From: Flavobacteriaceae bacterium
GTDB taxonomy: Bacteria; Bacteroidota; Bacteroidia; Flavobacteriales; Flavobacteriaceae
DNA: 44,201 nucleotides
NCBI GenBank assembly: GCA_022565635.1
Contig: JAIUMH010000008.1
Span: forward strand, 1 to 44,201
Direction of reading: 5' to 3'
The first letter of the stretch is position 1; each line of letters begins with the position of its first letter. The position numbers and the translations under genes are program-made. Under the pieces are notes generated by a model. That model did not search any database. It saw only the letters and a list, made by a program, of their open reading frames with translations, and was not told the origin of the DNA. Shown piece by piece: positions 2,857-41,414 of the stretch.

Positions 2857-3059
2857 CAATAATTTAATCAACTTTTATATGGCTAACTTGGCTTTGTTGT
2901 AATTCTTTTTGTTGACCCAATAGAAATACCATTTAAACCCTAAAAGGAAACTAATAAATCGTTTTTTTTCTTAAGTGTCGTTAAAAAAATAAAGCGTAGC
3001 TAAGGCTATACTTGATTTTTGGCTAGTTTAATCAAAAAATAATTCCATTAATTTCAGTC

Positions 3060-3512
3060 TTATTTTGCTTCAGTTGAATGATGTTGCATTTGTTCTTCAA
3101 GAAATTCTACATCTTCTTTCTTTAGGCTTTCTTTTGGTAACCTAATTTCAATTTTGTCATTTCTAAAAACATAATCACCAACAACAAATAGTACTTCATT
3201 CATGGCTTCATAAGTTAAAAATTTTCGTTTTTCAAAGCGCCATAAATCTTGTGGTTGATAAATTCCTTCCGCTGTAAATTCGTAATACCTGATTTTAGGT
3301 CCTAAAAAATATTCAGAAACCATGATTGAACCATAGATTACAAAGAAATAATCTGAAAATCTTAATCCGTCTGAAACATCTAAAAAGAACAATGCATATA
3401 GAAAATACAATATGAAAAGCATACCAATTAAAGCTTTTAAAAAACCATATTTTGCCCTTTTGTCATGGGCTAAAAAAATTTTCTTTGATTCTATAGATGT
3501 AGCCAAGCGCAT
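3060..3512 (-). CDS. Hypothetical membrane protein, 150 aa
   Basis: I do not recognise a named family. The protein has a charged N-terminal ~22 residues, two hydrophobic segments (about residues 25-45 and 53-70, separated by a short DVSDGLRFSD loop) and a charged C-terminal half that looks like a beta-rich PH-like domain: alternating short strands such as IRYYEFTAEGIY and EVLFVVGDYVFRNDKIEIRLP. Two membrane spans followed by a small beta domain is the layout of PH-domain-like membrane proteins, but this is only a fold guess. It lies inside the polysaccharide locus yet has its own promoter box and ~110 nt of upstream gap, so a role in polysaccharide synthesis is not implied. Confidence 0.75.
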   Translation of the reverse strand: MRLATSIESKKIFLAHDKRAKYGFLKALIGMLFILYFLYALFFLDVSDGLRFSDYFFVIYGSIMVSEYFLGPKIRYYEFTAEGIYQPQDLWRFEKRKFLTYEAMNEVLFVVGDYVFRNDKIEIRLPKESLKKEDVEFLEEQMQHHSTEAK

Positions 3513-35113: not shown

Positions 35114-35243
35114 CATAAAGCAAAAATATTGAATTTCTATGATGTTTTGAGACATATCTTTAATTAATACCATTTTTTATTTCACTGATTTTTAAAACGA
35201 AAAACAAGAATTGGTAACGTTGAAGCAGTAGGTAAAAGAACAG

Positions 35244-36017
35244 TTACACCCTAATTTTAAAATCTTGTTTAACTTGTTCTTTTCTAAAAAAAACCAATCC
35301 CCAATAAAAAGTATCAATACTAACTTTTACTGCTGGATGCTGAATAATTTTTTTCCAAGCTTCCTGCATGTCTTTGCTCCAATAGATATCGTCAAAAATA
35401 AACACGCTATCGTTGTGATGATGTGGTAAAAGCCTTTCAAAATAAGTATAAGTTGCCTCCCCATCATGATGACCATCCACAAAAACCAAATCGAATTTTG
35501 TATGGGAAGAAAGCGATTTTAAGTAGTCTTTAAAAGTACAAACTTCTGATGTAACCTTGGTTAATTGAAGTGCATCAAAATTATTTTTTGCTACTTGAGC
35601 TGTTTGTGGGCAGGCTTCAACAGTGGTTAATTCAAGTTCGGGTTTCAATGCCATGGCTAGGCTCCCCAATCCTAAAGAAGTGCCTAATTCTAAGGCGTTT
35701 TTAATTTTTAAATAATGCGTTAACCGATGTAAAAGTTTAGCGCGTTTGTAAGTTGTACCAGCATTTTTAGCTATGGCGGAGACTTTTCGCTCTGCGGAAG
35801 AAAACACCCGAGAGCCAGCACCAAAATCTTTGACCTCTATGGTTTCTTTCGACTTCAAAAGTTGTTTTTGAAACTTTTTCCAAACCAAATACCCCTCAAA
35901 ATCTGAAGTATCATAAAAGCATTCCGTTACCAATTTATACACAAAAGGCGAATGCAAACCATGCTGATTTTGAGAATTCAGCAAATAAGGTAAATAAGAT
36001 TTTATAGGATACCACAT
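35244..36017 (-). CDS. Class I SAM-dependent methyltransferase
   Basis: A 257-residue protein with a Rossmann methyltransferase domain. Motif I is ALELGTSLGLGSLAMA near residue 105, followed by TVEACPQTAQVAKNNF (the acidic residue after beta-2 binding the SAM ribose), and motif IV is FDLVFVDGHHDGEATYTYFE near 175, the Asp-Gly-x-His pattern of O-methyltransferase-like members. The N-terminus carries YLLNSQNQHGLHSPFVY, seen in many Bacteroidota homologues. The ATG at 36017 is chosen because the longer frame would need a TTG at 36056 and the family starts near here. The substrate is unknown. Confidence 0.82.
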   Translation of the reverse strand: MWYPIKSYLPYLLNSQNQHGLHSPFVYKLVTECFYDTSDFEGYLVWKKFQKQLLKSKETIEVKDFGAGSRVFSSAERKVSAIAKNAGTTYKRAKLLHRLTHYLKIKNALELGTSLGLGSLAMALKPELELTTVEACPQTAQVAKNNFDALQLTKVTSEVCTFKDYLKSLSSHTKFDLVFVDGHHDGEATYTYFERLLPHHHNDSVFIFDDIYWSKDMQEAWKKIIQHPAVKVSIDTFYWGLVFFRKEQVKQDFKIRV

Positions 36018-36105
36018 CTTTATTAAATGAAAGCGAAAATAGAAAAAATAACTCAAACTCTAACTTGTACTTGGAATGCTCATCGGTTTTATAGTACACG
36101 AAATA

Positions 36106-36122
36106 CGACCCCGCTGGGGTCG
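36106..36122. repeat. REP-like palindrome CGACCCC-GCT-GGGGTCG
   Basis: Perfect 7-bp arms with a 3-nt centre in otherwise AT-rich DNA. About 50 nt further on, a second palindrome has the same GCT centre. Confidence 0.7.
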
Positions 36123-36157
36123 AGCGTCAGAACGTGAAATTAATTTCTATACACATG

Positions 36158-36174
36158 CGAATCCGCTGGATTCG
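36158..36174. repeat. REP-like palindrome CGAATCC-GCT-GGATTCG
   Basis: Perfect 7-bp arms and the same GCT centre as 36106-36122, differing at two arm positions on each side in a compensated way. Both units are preceded by an ATA..ACAC stretch. Confidence 0.7.
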
Positions 36175-36415
36175 TGGATTTTTTTGTTGATTAAGATGAA
36201 GTTAAAGTAATCCTACGATGTTCAGAATAAACACTTTAAGCCATAGTTTGAAAGGGCTAGATTCAAGCACACACATATGGATTTAAAAACAATAAGCCAG
36301 ACCCTAAGAGGTTGGCCTTTTTCCCGGTAAGCTTTAAAATAAAATGAATGTCTTTCAAAATCAAAAATTAGCGTGTTTTTTATTCTCCTATACCAATTCA
36401 CAAAGCACTGAATCA

Positions 36416-36430
36416 GACCCCATCGGGGTC
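36416..36430. repeat. REP-like palindrome GACCCC-ATC-GGGGTC
   Basis: Perfect 6-bp arms identical to those of 36106-36122, but with an ATC centre. It may be a relative of that unit. Confidence 0.6.
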
Positions 36431-36512
36431 GAATCTCTATCCCGATTCTCCAATTTTCAATGGAGATTGGATTCCTTAAAAAAATCCATTAACTTTATCC
36501 AAAAATAATTTT

Positions 36513-36911
36513 ATGCCTACATTATTTACAAAAATCATCAACGGAGAAATTCCAGCGCACAAAGTCGCTGAAAACGATGACTTTTTAGCGTTTTTAGATA
36601 TTAACCCCAACGCCAAGGGACATACACTTTGCATTCCTAAAAAAGAGGTGAATAAAATCTTTGATTTAGACGAACAGACTTATTTAGCTTTGATGAAATT
36701 TTCCAAGCAAGTAGCCCACGGTTTAGAAAAAACCATTGCTTGCAAACGCGTGGGTATGGCGGTGGTTGGTCTTGAAGTACCGCATGTACACGTGCATTTA
36801 ATTCCGCTTAACGATATGAAAGAAATGACTTTTCAGCATAAAGTTAAAATGAGCCAGGAGGAATTGGGTGATTTAGCTAAAGAAATAGCTTCTCATGTGG
36901 AATTGGACTAA
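36513..36911 (+). CDS. HIT family nucleotide-binding hydrolase
   Basis: A 132-residue histidine-triad protein, HinT/Hit-like, that hydrolyses nucleotide phosphoramidates or dinucleotides. The catalytic triad motif is HVHVHLIP, His91-x-His93-x-His95, preceded by VGLEVP. The N-terminal blocks FTKIINGEIPAHKV and AFLDINPNAKGHTLCIPKKE are highly conserved. The usual HIT start MPTLFTKII at 36513 is clear. It stands alone between two palindrome-rich gaps. A near-consensus -7 box (TAACTTTA) lies about 15 nt upstream. Confidence 0.95.
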   Translation: MPTLFTKIINGEIPAHKVAENDDFLAFLDINPNAKGHTLCIPKKEVNKIFDLDEQTYLALMKFSKQVAHGLEKTIACKRVGMAVVGLEVPHVHVHLIPLNDMKEMTFQHKVKMSQEELGDLAKEIASHVELD

Positions 36912-37093
36912 ATTTTGCTAGGTAAGACTTATTTTTACTGGTTTAGTTTCTTTCAAAGACATAAGCGGTAAATAGAAAATCACCAAATTCATCAAAAACA
37001 ACCCATTTTAAATAATTGAATTCGTCCTGTTTACAGTTTTGAATTTCAATTGTTGCAAATTGAATCAAACATTCAATTTGCATCATTCAGCAG

Positions 37094-37113
37094 GAACGGG
37101 ATTGATCCCGTTC
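37094..37113. repeat. REP-like palindrome with GAACGGGAT arms
   Basis: A perfect 9-bp inverted repeat with a 2-nt TG centre in AT-rich DNA. There is no T-run or nearby gene end, so it is not a typical terminator. Confidence 0.65.
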
Positions 37114-37290
37114 ATAGATTAAAAACCTAAACAGGCTTTAGCCAAATTTTTTATTGAGTGATTTTGGACATCAGTTTTGTAAAAAGTTGGGTTAAAGCCC
37201 CTGTGGAGAACAAATTAATTTTCCTTCCTCTGAGGATGAGGGCTTCTGATTTATTAACGAGATTTAAAAAATGAAATGGGGATTAATGCT

Positions 37291-37298
37291 TAAATTTG
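37291..37298 (+). promoter_or_regulatory. Candidate -7 promoter box of dinB (TAAATTTG)
   Basis: A TAnnTTTG match 16 nt upstream of the dinB ATG. No -33 TTG at the usual spacing and no LexA-like site are seen. Confidence 0.5.
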
Positions 37299-37314
37299 AA
37301 GCAAGAATTTATTC

Positions 37315-38421
37315 ATGCAACCGGAAACCGATTTTAAACAACACATCAGAAAAATCATACATATTGATATGGATGCTTTTTATGCTTCGGTAGAGCAATT
37401 GGATTTTCCTGAGTTGCAAGGAAAAGCTATTGCTGTGGGAGGAAGTTCTAATCGTGGTGTGGTAGCCGCTGCTAGTTATGAAGCCAGAAAATTTGGGGTA
37501 AAAAGCGCCATGAGTGGAAGGCAAGCACAACGCCTTTGTCCTGACTTAATTTTTGTAAAAGCTCGTTTTGATCGGTATAAAGAAATTTCTCAACAAATTA
37601 GAAAAGTTTTTTATGAATATACCTCATTGGTTGAACCACTTTCTTTAGATGAAGCTTATTTGGATGTTACACAAAACACCCAAGGCCATCCTAGCGCCAC
37701 GCTTTTAGCTACTGAAATCAGGCAAAAAATTAAAGAAAAAACTGGTTTAAATGCTTCCGCTGGAGTTTCCATCAATAAGTTTATTGCTAAAGTGGCCAGT
37801 GATATCAATAAACCCAACGGACAAAAAACCATTCCGCCAGAAGAAGTAATTTCCTTCTTAGAAAACTTAGATGTGCGTAAATTTTACGGAGTGGGAAAGA
37901 AAACTCAGGAGAAGATGTATGCCATGGGGATTTTTACGGGAGCCGATTTAAAAAAAATGAGCATAGAAGAACTTGAAAAAAACTTTGGAAAAAGCGGTTT
38001 GCATTATTACCAAATTGTGCGCGGTGTGCATTTAAGTCAAGTAAAACCCAACAGAACTCGAAAATCACTAGGTGCAGAACAAACTTTTTCAAAAAATATT
38101 AGCTCTGAAGTATTTATGGAAGATAAGCTACAGCAAATTGCAGAAGAAGTAGAAAGGCGACTCAAATCTGCGCAAGTAGCCGGAAAAACCATTACTTTAA
38201 AAATTAAGTATTCAGATTTTAGCACCCATACCCGAAGCAAGACATTGGCTTTATTTATTGCTAGCTCCTCCCTAATTTATGAAGAAGCTAAAGCACTCCT
38301 TTACCAAGAAAAGCTAAAAGATTCCGTACGCTTAATTGGCATTAGCCTTTCTAATTTAAATAACGACAATACTCCTAAAAAAGTAACCCCCAAAGAACAT
38401 CAGCTTCAACTTCCTTTTTGA
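37315..38421 (+). CDS. dinB: DNA polymerase IV (Y-family, DinB)
   Basis: An error-prone translesion DNA polymerase of 368 residues. The catalytic metal ligands are in place: Asp18 and Asp20 in IIHIDMDAFYASVE, and Asp112-Glu113 in PLSLDEAYLDVT. The fingers block GVVAAASYEARKFGVKSAM, the thumb helix-hairpin-helix (FYGVGKKTQEKMYAMGI) and the little-finger domain follow. The very C-terminus, QLQLPF, is a fair match to the beta-clamp binding QLxLF motif. The stop codon lies 4 nt before the long-inverted-repeat element at 38425. Confidence 0.96.
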   Translation: MQPETDFKQHIRKIIHIDMDAFYASVEQLDFPELQGKAIAVGGSSNRGVVAAASYEARKFGVKSAMSGRQAQRLCPDLIFVKARFDRYKEISQQIRKVFYEYTSLVEPLSLDEAYLDVTQNTQGHPSATLLATEIRQKIKEKTGLNASAGVSINKFIAKVASDINKPNGQKTIPPEEVISFLENLDVRKFYGVGKKTQEKMYAMGIFTGADLKKMSIEELEKNFGKSGLHYYQIVRGVHLSQVKPNRTRKSLGAEQTFSKNISSEVFMEDKLQQIAEEVERRLKSAQVAGKTITLKIKYSDFSTHTRSKTLALFIASSSLIYEEAKALLYQEKLKDSVRLIGISLSNLNNDNTPKKVTPKEHQLQLPF

Positions 38422-38424
38422 TTT

Positions 38425-38590
38425 ATACCAATTTAACTTTTAAATGTCGTTCATAGAGCGAAATTGCTTTTTTCTTAGATGACGATGTGATTAATTTGCA
38501 TCCTGTACGTACCGGATGGAAATTGTGAACAAGGAAATATAAGGAAAAATGAATAAGCTAAATAGCGTCATTTGATGGTTAAATTAATAT
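38425..38590. mobile_element. MITE-like long inverted-repeat element, copy 1
   Basis: A 166-bp near-palindromic element without coding capacity. The ends (ATACCAATTTAAC and ATTTAACCATC-type) are inverted copies; folding the element pairs about 56 of 82 positions along its whole length, and the exact centre is the near-perfect palindrome CATCCTGTACGTACCGGATG (38499-38518). A related copy in the opposite orientation is at 41077. The end motif TATACCAATT also recurs near 36390. No transposase is nearby, so it would be a non-autonomous element. It begins 4 nt after the dinB stop codon. Confidence 0.65.
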
Positions 38591-38713
38591 TACACCACAT
38601 TCAAACCACTATTCGCTTTACATATTGTTTCTTAGAAACTTAAATTTAAGGTAATTTCTAAACTCATAACCTTTACTTATTTTATAATCTTATGTACCTC
38701 CAATAAAATTACT

Positions 38714-38721
38714 TACATTTG
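38714..38721 (+). promoter_or_regulatory. Candidate -7 promoter box of rnr (TACATTTG)
   Basis: A TAnnTTTG match 18 nt upstream of the ATG at 38740. Its position rules out the TTG at 38719 as the translation start. A GAGGAG stretch (38721-38726) lies in the short leader or just before it. Confidence 0.5.
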
Positions 38722-38739
38722 AGGAGTTTTAAAATATAT

Positions 38740-40968
38740 ATGAGTAAACAGAGAAATAACAAAAGAAAAGGGAAGAGTGGGGTGCCCAGTACAAACTTCA
38801 CACATCAAATTCTTAGAATTTTTAAGTCAAACGAAAACGAATCTTTCAACTATAAAGACATAGCTTCGCGTTTAAACCTAGATGATGCTAAAAGCAGAAA
38901 TCGAATTATTCGAACCTTAGCTCAACAAACCGCCAAAGGTAAATTGAAAGAAACTTCCAGAGGAAAATTCCAATTTAATGGAAGTTCAGATTTTTATGAA
39001 GGAACTATAGATATGACTTCCAAAGGTGACGCTTACGTCATAGTTGAAGGTCTTGAAAATGATATTCACATTGCTAATGCTAATCTAAACGGAGCATTAA
39101 ACAGAGATAAAGTTCAAGTTTACGTCTTTAAAAACCGCCAACGTTCAAGTTCTGAAGGAGAGGTAATTGATATAGTTGAACGCCACACCACTCGTTTTGT
39201 GGGAGTCTTAGACCAACAGAAAAATTTTGGTTTTGTGGTCATACAAAACCCTAAAATGTACACCGATATTTTTGTGGCGCCAGAAAACATAAATGGCGCT
39301 AAAGATGGTGAAATGGTCTTGGTTGAAATGACTTCTTGGGGAAAAAAAGACGATTCGCCACGAGGGAAAATCATTGAAGTCTTAGGAATACCCGGAGAAC
39401 ATCAAACTGAAATGCACGCTATTTTAGCCCAGTACGGGTTACCTGAAAAATTCCCTAAAGAAGTAGAAGATTACGCCAATCAACTAGATACTTCTATTCA
39501 AGCTTCAGAAATTGCAAAGCGAAGAGATATGCGGGATGTACTTACATTCACTATAGACCCAGCAGATGCTAAAGATTTTGATGATGCACTAAGTTTTAAG
39601 GTGCTAGAGAATGGAAATTATGAAATTGGTATTCACATTGCCGATGTTTCTTTTTACGTACAACCCGGAAGTATTTTAGATGAAGAAGCTTACCAAAGAG
39701 CTACCTCTATTTATTTGGTAGATCGGGTGGTACCTATGTTGCCTGAAGTGCTTTCTAACAACGCCTGTTCTTTAAGACCCAACGAAGAAAAATACACCTT
39801 TTCTTCGGTCTTTGAAGTCACTCCACAAGCTAAAGTAGTCAACGAATGGTTTGGTAGAACAGTCACTTATTCAGATGCGCGTTTTGCCTATGAAGAAGCG
39901 CAATATATCATTGATACAGAAGATAATAGTGTAGATGAAAGTGTTTCGCTCAGCGGAAAAACTTATCAAGTAGATGATGCCATTAAAGAAGCTGTAATAA
40001 AGCTAGATCAGTTGGCTAAAATGATGCGTATTAGAAGAATGAAAAACGGCTCTATTTCATTTGATAAAATTGAAGTAAAATTCGATTTAAATGATGAAAA
40101 CAATCCTGAAGGAGTATTTTTTAAAACCTCTAAAGATGCCAATAAGCTAATTGAAGAATTTATGTTATTGGCCAATAAAAAAGTATCTGAATTTATAGGA
40201 AAACAAAAACCTAAAAAGACTTTTGTGTACCGTTGCCATGATGAGCCAGATCCAGAAAAACTATCGGCTTTAAGCACGGTAGTAAGTAAGTTTGGTTATC
40301 AGATGAATTTTAAAAGCAGAAAATCAACCATCAGTTCTTTAAATCAATTATTGGAAGATGTACAGGGCAAAGGTGAACAAAATCTGATTGATACTTTAGC
40401 CATTAGAACCATGTCTAAGGCGTATTATTCCACCAAAAACATTGGTCATTACGGATTGGCATTCGATTTTTACTCGCATTTTACTTCGCCCATTAGAAGG
40501 TACCCAGATGTAATGGTACACCGATTATTGCAACGTTATTTAGACGAAAAAGACAGCGTGAAACAAGAAGAATATGAAGAAAAATGTAAACATTCTTCAC
40601 AAATGGAAGGTTTAGCTACCAACGCCGAACGTGATTCGATTAAATATATGCAAGTAAAATTCATGCAACAGTATGAAAACGAAGAGTTTAAGGGTGTGAT
40701 TTCGGGAGTAACTGATTTTGGAATGTTTGTTGAAATCATAGAAAACCGATGTGAAGGTATGGTACGTTTAAGAGATATTGAAGGTGACCACTACTACTTT
40801 GATCAAGAAAATTATGCCATTGTTGGTAAACGAAAAAAGATAACTTATCAATTGGGTGATGAGGTTTTTGTAAAAGTAAAGAAAGCCGATTTAATTAAAC
40901 GTAATATCGATTTTGAATTGGTAGGAAGTAAGGAAAGCAAATTTTTAGAAAAAGGGGAGGTGGTTTAA
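38740..40968 (+). CDS. rnr: Ribonuclease R
   Basis: A 3'-to-5' exoribonuclease of 742 residues that degrades structured RNA and rRNA. It starts with a basic stretch (MSKQRNNKRKGKSG), then a winged-helix region (FNYKDIASRLNLDDAKSRNRIIRTL), two cold-shock-like OB folds, and the RNB catalytic domain from ~265, with DPADAKDFDDALSF carrying the metal-binding Asp residues, SNNACSLRPNEEKYTFS and the FTSPIRRYPDVMVHRLL block. A C-terminal S1 domain (FKGVISGVTDFGMFVEI) follows. The ATG at 38740 is used. It has its own promoter and terminator and lies between two inverted-repeat elements. Confidence 0.96.
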   Translation: MSKQRNNKRKGKSGVPSTNFTHQILRIFKSNENESFNYKDIASRLNLDDAKSRNRIIRTLAQQTAKGKLKETSRGKFQFNGSSDFYEGTIDMTSKGDAYVIVEGLENDIHIANANLNGALNRDKVQVYVFKNRQRSSSEGEVIDIVERHTTRFVGVLDQQKNFGFVVIQNPKMYTDIFVAPENINGAKDGEMVLVEMTSWGKKDDSPRGKIIEVLGIPGEHQTEMHAILAQYGLPEKFPKEVEDYANQLDTSIQASEIAKRRDMRDVLTFTIDPADAKDFDDALSFKVLENGNYEIGIHIADVSFYVQPGSILDEEAYQRATSIYLVDRVVPMLPEVLSNNACSLRPNEEKYTFSSVFEVTPQAKVVNEWFGRTVTYSDARFAYEEAQYIIDTEDNSVDESVSLSGKTYQVDDAIKEAVIKLDQLAKMMRIRRMKNGSISFDKIEVKFDLNDENNPEGVFFKTSKDANKLIEEFMLLANKKVSEFIGKQKPKKTFVYRCHDEPDPEKLSALSTVVSKFGYQMNFKSRKSTISSLNQLLEDVQGKGEQNLIDTLAIRTMSKAYYSTKNIGHYGLAFDFYSHFTSPIRRYPDVMVHRLLQRYLDEKDSVKQEEYEEKCKHSSQMEGLATNAERDSIKYMQVKFMQQYENEEFKGVISGVTDFGMFVEIIENRCEGMVRLRDIEGDHYYFDQENYAIVGKRKKITYQLGDEVFVKVKKADLIKRNIDFELVGSKESKFLEKGEVV

Positions 40969-40995
40969 ATCACTCCAACTTTATTGTTTTAAAAG

Positions 40996-41021
40996 AAAGA
41001 ACCTCAAGGGGTTCTTTTTTT
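40996..41021 (+). terminator. Intrinsic terminator of rnr
   Basis: AAGAACC (40997-41003) pairs with GGTTCTT (41010-41016), extended by a T-G pair, and is followed by a T-run. It lies 29 nt after the rnr stop codon. Confidence 0.8.
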
Positions 41022-41076
41022 ATATGTTATGGTCTTTAGATGAATAGCTGAGTGTATCAACATCAAATGAAGCTTT

Positions 41077-41236
41077 ATACCAATTTAACCATCAAATCAC
41101 GCCATTTAACTATTCTTTTTTTGCATCTCTTATTTATAATTAATGATTCCGTAAGACTTTCAGGAGGGAAATTACTAGCAATGTTAGCTAAGAAAAATAT
41201 CACTTCATAAACAACATTGAATAGTGAAATGGGAAC
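41077..41236. mobile_element. MITE-like long inverted-repeat element, copy 2
   Basis: A second, more decayed copy of the element at 38425-38590, in opposite orientation. Its first ~46 nt match the reverse complement of the right arm of copy 1 at about 39 of 46 positions (the block AATTTAACCATCAAAT is identical), and its right half, from AGGAGGGAAATTA through CTAAGAAAAA to GAAATGGG, follows the reverse complement of the left arm of copy 1. No ORF or transposase is present. With the rnr terminator it fills most of the 40969-41427 gap; apart from the promoter box at 41407 I see nothing else there. Confidence 0.6.
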
Positions 41237-41380
41237 ATACTTTAATGCATCAAAATAGTTAACTTGTAAAAAAAATAACAGTTAATCGAAAATAAGTAAA
41301 TCTATCTTTTTATTTTGTTTCTGTTAATTGTTTGACTATAAGGGGTGAATGTAAATTAATATTCTCACTGTTTTATGTTT

Positions 41381-41414
41381 TTGTTAAGTTGTTCGTATGA
41401 TTTTTTTATATTTG
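41381..41414 (+). promoter_or_regulatory. Candidate promoter of the metalloprotease gene (TTG-N23-TATATTTG)
   Basis: TATATTTG (41407-41414) is a full -7 match; the TTG at 41381-41383 gives a 23-nt spacing, at the long end of the usual range. The leader would be only about 8 nt. Confidence 0.55.

Follow-up and report, generated by a model that had tools for sequence, protein, structure and literature searches.

The stretch analysed here (the window) is the 44,201-nt contig JAIUMH010000008.1 of a Flavobacteriaceae bacterium, in which two related elements of about 160 bp, copy 1 and copy 2, lie in opposite orientation on either side of rnr (Table 1). The names used below for dinB, rnr and the HIT, methyltransferase and deaminase genes are presumptive, in part taken over from a first-pass annotation. 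That annotation had described the inverted pair, a central palindrome in copy 1 and positions just after dinB and just after the rnr terminator, and all of this holds: the dinB stop codon adjoins the target duplication of copy 1, and a stem-loop precedes copy 2. Neither copy codes for protein, as had also been stated, with no open reading frame (ORF) of at least 60 amino acids in either. Copy 2 is related to copy 1 and inverted relative to it (blastn, 69%, E 3.7e-8, opposite strand), and our second covariance model, R2, picks it up on the minus strand with 34 bits (E 1.3e-4).

The RNA fold of the copy 1 plus strand (38420-38595) reaches -45.8 kcal/mol, against -27.9 ± 3.5 for shuffled sequences (z -5.2; 0 of 200 as good), and the element alone forms 57 pairs from end to end, where about 56 of 82 positions had been paired by hand. 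The minus strand folds at -27.6 kcal/mol (z -2.9; 2 of 200 shuffles as good). Copy 2 folds no better than chance on the plus strand (z -0.06; 89 of 200 shuffles as good) or the minus strand (z -0.39; 69 of 200), so the earlier description of self-folding along the full length fits copy 1 and not copy 2. The tip of copy 1 is of the GTACGTAC type, versus GCRTAGC..GCTAYGG in many other copies. The fold of a possible third copy (Table 1) is not above chance (z -0.34). Rfam gave nothing above the gathering threshold in the window and nothing at E ≤ 1 within 38300-41400; on 10 loci of the element it found just tRNAs and an S16 leader, all outside the elements. Copies 1 and 2 are very probably one well-kept and one decayed copy of a ~160-bp non-autonomous transposon, a miniature inverted-repeat transposable element (MITE). 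Our reading as a whole, to which we give a probability of roughly 0.85, is that of a hairpin MITE, rod-like end to end when intact, with an IS630-like partner seen in a relative.

Table 1 Features of the window around rnr, and a possible further copy; gene names are presumptive.
Feature	Position	Strand	Remarks
Copy 1	38426..38589	+	Probable full-length hairpin MITE, 164 bp; + is the better-folding strand; R2 137.7 bits, E 6.7e-25
Left target duplication TTA of copy 1	38423..38425		1 nt past the dinB stop codon; from sequence and the TNA rule
Right target duplication TTA of copy 1	38590..38592		From sequence
Hairpin tip (central palindrome) of copy 1	38498..38519	+	GTACGTAC type
Copy 2	41078..41235	-	Probable decayed inverted copy, 158 bp; left TTA 41075-41077, right triplet does not match
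Possible third decayed copy	2927..3078	-	Weakly matched by R2 (31.3 bits, E 4.5e-4); the strand it lies on shows a GTATAGCCTTAGCTACGC tip
dinB	37315..38421	+	Copy 1 starts directly after
rnr	38740..40968	+	Between copy 1 and copy 2
Terminator-like stem-loop	40992..41021	+	3' of rnr, upstream of copy 2
Three-gene block (methyltransferase-like, HIT-like, dinB)	35232..38421		Inverted relative to G018; one breakpoint at copy 1

The termini of the family are TACCAA..TTGGTA, with TACCAAWTT..AAWTTGGTA as terminal inverted repeats, and copies are flanked by 3-bp TNA duplications (TAA, TTA, TCA and TGA among the examples). In G025, a relative assembled as a single contig, the flanking TNA triplets are equal in 18 of 20 sampled copies, two of the 20 sharing flanks, and the pattern of TNA plus element end has 353 matches against 11 for a reversed control pattern. 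Over 400 kb of this genome, pairs of ends flanked by equal TNA have preferred spacings of about 160, 184 and 208 bp, and visual comparison shows each arm either with or without a 24-bp segment, independently of the other arm (L149-L168). Two reading frames lie inside one end pair spaced 1122 bp apart; they carry helix-turn-helix and DDE_3 domains (DDE_3, PF13358, E 1.9e-18) and together make an IS630-like transposase. In the copies examined (L154, 17811-18879) the transposase is split over two frames, with 164 and 194 amino acids open, as if a frameshift were needed. This IS630-like element is matched 11 times in G025, and the remaining 26 genomes of the genus gave no match at E ≤ 1e-5; eight of the 11 have TACCAATTTAGTTATTAAATG../TACCAAATA.. 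(TACC) ends and equal TNA. At L154 it is inserted within a MITE with TTA on both sides, a clean 3-bp duplication, as seen by comparing an intact MITE (..AAATTAGACC..) with the interrupted one (..AAATTA-[IS]-TTAGACC.., IS being the insertion sequence). The sharing of ends between MITE and IS630-like element is specific: a second DDE_3 element in G025 has ends of another type (TATTAACTTCG.., beginning and ending with TA; 10 of 16 copies aligned).

In the family as a whole, 8 of 397 genomes hold a relative of the transposase. TACC at both ends together with equal TNA was found at 7 of the 28 transposase loci examined (6 elements, in G032, G121 and G423, which represent three further genera); of these, G121 also carries the MITE (L120), with similar ends. 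No DDE_3 was found in the window's own genome, so the partner of its copies is unseen, and the same goes for most carriers, though draft assemblies may hide one. At one locus (L012, 1497-1561) there is a 65-bp miniature made of the outer parts of both arms only, its ends intact and its flanking triplets unequal. What can be read directly from the sequences is the many copies, the common ends and TNA duplications, an IS630-like element that resembles the MITE in both ends and duplication, and the insertion of that element into a MITE. Short and non-coding, with terminal inverted repeats, a target duplication and ends common to an autonomous transposon, the element has the sequence features of a MITE. 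This bears out the earlier suggestion of non-autonomous mobile elements, and the further copies, conserved ends, target duplications and autonomous transposase that had been proposed as a check are all there, the last in a relative.

At E<1e-5 the element's own genome contains 15 separate matches, among them copies 1 and 2 and several partial ones; one further match is the reverse-strand reading of a copy in this count. Because contigs C42, C50, C65, C153 and C155 of this genome break off within or close to a copy, the count probably falls short of the true number. By DNA similarity (E ≤ 1e-6) the element is present in 13 of 60 genomes, its own included, all within the genus. R1, a covariance model from 22 copies built on the strand opposite to the better-folding one, finds it at E ≤ 0.01 in 16 of 27 genus genomes, two of these at E ~0.007-0.008 only. 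At E ≤ 1e-6, R1 finds it in 27 of 397 genomes of the family (24 of 237 sampled genera), a lower bound given the strict filters used. Size is well kept among 41 R1 places outside the own genome, 39 being 156-162 bp and the two shorter ones 118 and 132 bp. Across the phylum R2, applied with strict filters and 7 candidates scored per genome, finds the element in 8 of 395 genomes (7 of 170 genera). An exact scan of named genomes for the tip motif gave at least 119 stretches; the 80 matches listed include Flavobacteriales, Saprospiraceae, Lewinella, Bacteroidales, Draconibacterium, Psychroflexus, Mesonia, Maribacter and Flavivirga, as well as one contig labelled Chlorobiota. R2 was run on 82 of 121 tip-motif loci; a copy in Psychroflexus planctonicus (L290) is similar to the window's family, a hint that the window may derive from Psychroflexus or a neighbouring genus, and two viral contigs fit the tip pattern but gave no R2 match at E ≤ 0.001.

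The pairing within the hairpin was followed in an alignment of 22 copies (A2), some belonging to the genus and the others to 15 genomes in 14 further genera, with a mean column identity of 73%; of 19 loci outside the genus, three misaligned copies (L119, L121, L125) and a 118-bp copy without the tip (L128) were left out, as was copy 2. The consensus fold of the better strand has 54 pairs, an energy of -40.1 and a covariation term of -8.1. Compensatory change is seen in 38 of the 54 pairs, compared to 22.3 in shuffled alignments, and 92% of the cells are paired compared to 76%. Compensated cells number 162, against 46.4 in shuffles and 35-51 in slid structures; for each of these three measures, 0 of 500 shuffles reach the observed value. 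The inner helices covary as well (columns 50-122: CG 7, GC 6, AU 4, UA 3), which a transposase reading the ends does not obviously explain. In the window's family alone, compensation is found in 9 of 40 pairs. Among the cells of family 1, private changes are compensated in 3 and one-sided in 20, and shared changes in 77 and 19, respectively; the latter ratio goes back to few events. Private changes in this family mostly break pairs (26 one-sided versus 3 two-sided states). A cluster of 57 copies, nearly all from G025, offers only 5 pairs common to both strands for the same comparison.

The two strands are not equivalent. The same strand folds better in 31 of 32 copies and in 21 of the 22 in A2, by a mean of 16.5 kcal/mol, and in 22 of 22 with DNA energy parameters. 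R1 did not favour this polarity, because it was built on the opposite strand. The real strand difference is larger than the shuffled one in 21 of the 22 copies, with z below -1.64 in 17, and the fold z-score is stronger on the better-folding strand in 20. Of the pairs predicted on both strands in these copies, 37 are G-U and 13 are A-C. The excess recurs in 17 representatives of all end classes, compared with the tip excluded in a strand-neutral alignment: G-U 83 versus A-C 31, with a G-U excess in 15 copies, an A-C excess in one and a tie in one. These 17 were picked from 29 R2 matches in named genomes to spread over the end classes, their orientation being set by R2 and the tip. Private mutations are even (G-U 7, A-C 8, small numbers), and since recent and private changes show no asymmetry, mutation bias is not an evident cause of the excess. 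Statistically, and with the caveats given below, pairing is kept between divergent copies despite changes of letters, and one given strand folds better.

The 29 chosen R2 matches in named genomes are 147-172 bp long, most of them 155-163 bp, and all keep the tip; the better fold is on the same strand in 29 of 29, with orientation set by the model and the tip. In 19 of them the ends are other than TACC or TATC and fall into the classes TCCCTAACGC.., TAACGACGAA.., AGGGATGGG.., TAGCTTAAA.. and AAGYTGTT.., plus single others. Flanking triplets are equal in 6 of the 29, that is, in 5 of 10 with TACC or TATC ends and in 1 of 19 others. We compared cores and ends between classes with the tip excluded and at most 9 sequence pairs per class pair. 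Between TACC and TCCC copies of two Flavobacteriales metagenome-assembled genomes (MAGs), the core arms are 0.82 and 0.78 identical (z 10.7), and the ends 0.44 and 0.51 (z 1.3). TAACGAC and AGGGATG copies have cores of ~0.70 (z 8.3) and ends of ~0.5 (z 0.5). In the Flavobacteriales MAGs JALTUD and JALWSJ, the ends around the shared core are TCCCTAAC and TACCATTT. To judge from these alignments, the terminal ~27 bp differ around a retained hairpin core in at least two comparisons. The TCCC ends are not counted as transposon ends, because the printed copies of this class sit inside a larger composite repeat. The AAGYTGTT-ended Saprospiraceae class was considered as a bearer of the same core and rejected: the tip motif is common to it, and the core is at chance (z -0.8 to 1.4). 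At L294, L304, L237, L282 and L271, all in Flavobacteriales MAGs, TCCCTAAC-ended hairpins follow a conserved composite repeat GGGCGTT..CCC..GTCGRGCTATCACTACTCACTC..GGAGTTCAAACACGCC, and close behind most of them a further CCCTAACG starts.

Tentatively, the conserved unit might be a structured, strand-specific hairpin core of ~105 bp (tip TTTGCRTAGC..GCTAYGGAAA) whose outermost ~27 bp at either end are exchanged to match different mobilising systems. Such a core would be a satellite parasitising several transposon families, would need its single-stranded fold (RNA or single-stranded DNA, ssDNA) to propagate and would persist in Bacteroidota. What counts against so broad a claim is that the window's copies fall in the flavobacterial TACC class, whose core has no similarity beyond the tip to the Saprospiraceae and Lewinella classes (z 0.1 to 1.5); with the MAG classes its core similarity is weak (z 2.7 and 2.9). 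We regard the satellite core as the less probable because the window's own class lacks detectable similarity to the Saprospiraceae classes outside the tip.

The mechanism we propose for the hairpin MITE is as follows. An IS630-like transposase would recognise the outer ~25 bp and move the MITE in trans, and the better-folding strand would matter during propagation in single-stranded form, whether as RNA or as ssDNA. Once inserted, a copy would neither help nor harm the host and would decay, as happened to copy 2, and the hairpin core could be kept while the ends differ. The private mutations ignore pairing and the copies have no consistent orientation to genes; for these reasons we cautiously suggest that the fold is under selection while the element propagates rather than for a host function. 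If this is true, a single-stranded form would matter in the life of a DDE-mobilised element. It is easy to regard a hairpin in a bacterial MITE as a side effect of its inverted ends. In the present family, compensatory changes maintain the hairpin over many genera, one strand is preferred, and the ends differ around a common core in two comparisons. With its MITE-IS pair, G025 allows selection on the fold to be tested directly.

Several observations weigh against this interpretation. On the side of mobility, a DDE_3 transposase was detected in only 3 of 27 genus genomes and was found neither in the window's genome nor in its relative G018, and the unequal-arm forms of 184 bp have transposed too. 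IS630 elements typically duplicate TA, and the duplication here is a 3-bp TNA that includes TCA and TGA. On the side of the fold, the structure tested was derived from the same alignment, the copies are related so that cells are not independent, and the copies from other genera were found by R1, a structure-bearing model that favours copies that pair. Counted as distinct states in family 1, with L110 and L112 removed and 30 copies left, compensation is seen in 3 of 8 shared versus 2 of 29 private states (p 0.057). Composition, as measured by dinucleotide shuffles, contributes about 7.4 of the 16.5 kcal/mol by which the strands differ on average, and among recent changes in family 1 wobble pairs are not in excess (G-U 11, A-C 15).

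The strongest rival to selection on the fold is that pairing is kept without it, the arms being homogenised by template switching or arm-to-arm recombination so that a palindrome stays a palindrome. This would account for concerted change in both arms, and the arms are indeed reshuffled, the 160-, 184- and 208-bp forms differing by the 24-bp segment on either arm or both. Homogenisation would, however, erase mismatches, yet some recur at the same places, such as a G opposite G beside the tip as read from the alignment, and it predicts no excess of G-U over A-C on one strand, of the kind described above. We therefore consider it improbable, if still worth serious weight.

Considerably less probable is a host role for the hairpin, in which it would act on neighbouring genes as a terminator, 3'-end or RNase III element; such a role is reported for Correia/NEMIS in Neisseria mRNAs, and an action on 3' ends had also been proposed in the first-pass annotation. 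Copies are intergenic and often near stop codons, and copy 1, with its strong RNA fold, follows the dinB stop codon directly. Orientation was examined in 125 copies, the rest of 188 near-full matches after removal of repeats and of copies without 20 nt of flank; none is inside an ORF as judged by a simple ORF caller. Between co-directional genes (58 copies) the better-folding strand is sense in 33 and antisense in 25, and between convergent genes (24 copies) it is sense to the nearer gene in 6 and antisense in 18, giving 39 sense and 43 antisense together; 12 further copies are divergent and 31 lie at edges. With no consistent direction to genes, copy orientation was rejected as a sign of host function. 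The fold of copy 2 is lost, private changes do not respect the pairs, and dinB has no element in G018 and G002, all of which speak against a role at 3' ends.

Of slightly lower probability again is that the real mobile unit is a site used as strand-specific ssDNA. Integron attC sites and the ends of IS200/IS605 elements offer the comparison. The conserved mismatches and tip would fit such a site, as would a strand difference that persists with DNA energies, but TNA target duplications and ends common to a DDE transposon do not. Chance palindromes, or long repeats that let rnr invert as first proposed, have the opposite orientation of the two copies in their favour and can be dismissed, since chance is already refuted by the family-wide copies and the z-score of copy 1, the copies are only 69% alike, and the block that is inverted is not rnr but the three genes to the left of copy 1.

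Among known systems, ERIC/RU-1 of enterobacteria is palindromic, and Cardinium, the bearer of MITECca01, belongs to the same phylum as the genomes studied here. REP/BIME sequences with RAYT, 20-40-bp palindromes next to a Y1 transposase, differ in size from the present element. According to the accessible parts of PMC2229807, transcripts of bacterial MITEs generally form long stem-loops, and RUP of Streptococcus pneumoniae is proposed to be moved by IS630-Spn1. The long hairpin, which had been thought to set the two copies apart from ordinary MITEs, is by this account a general feature, so that the contrast was half right, and it is the covariation, strand polarity and differing ends that are unusual. 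RUP, as described there, is the nearest likeness: a small intergenic MITE with terminal inverted repeats like those of an IS630 element, a TA-containing target and a stem-loop transcript. In comparison to RUP (107 bp), the present element has ~160 bp, a 3-bp TNA duplication, a range of many genera, covariation and strand polarity, a distinction drawn by description and not by sequence. Correia/NEMIS of Neisseria is a MITE of 107-155 bp whose RNA is a long stem-loop, as far as the accessible parts of PMC10969869 and PMC2229807 describe it; it comes from another phylum and was likewise compared by description, not sequence. ERIC/RU-1 is MITE-like, 127 bp long, widespread in a taxon and has TA at its ends (PMC2229807, accessible parts), and differs in size and taxon and from the present case, where an autonomous partner is identified in a relative. 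MITECca01 is a MITE with a parental IS, derived from IS982, ~240 bp long and confined to one lineage, and the word hairpin is absent from the accessible text of that paper (PMC9769881). The words IS630, Bacteroid- and Flavobacteri- are absent from the accessible text of a 2024 review (PMC10969869), and we found no description of this family in the literature within reach, most subscription journals being outside it. The kind of element, a hairpin MITE like RUP, is already known; what is new is how widely it covaries, its strand polarity and ends that differ where the core is shared.

The surroundings of copy 1 have been rearranged. By rnr, the closest genomes to the window are G018 (92%) and next G002 (89%), and in both a deaminase-like gene follows dinB directly, with no element there; in G002 just this junction is visible. 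In the window the deaminase-like gene lies beyond the opposite end of the methyltransferase-like/HIT-like/dinB block, and similarity to G018 at the dinB end of the block breaks off at TTTTTGAT, the start of the target duplication and copy 1. Given this order of relationship, the arrangement of the 35.2-38.4 kb block in the window is probably the derived one. No copy of the element was detected at the other breakpoint in an R2 scan of the window, and copy 1 may either have taken part in the inversion or have arrived later. Empty sites, part of the check proposed at the outset, were not obtained for the two window insertions, as the neighbours of rnr are not conserved and the dinB junction of G018 and G002 is rearranged. 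In several genomes of the genus (L009, L011, L017, L036, L070), a AGAGCTTCCTRCCGGTCGCTTTG-like repeat lies near copies of the element.

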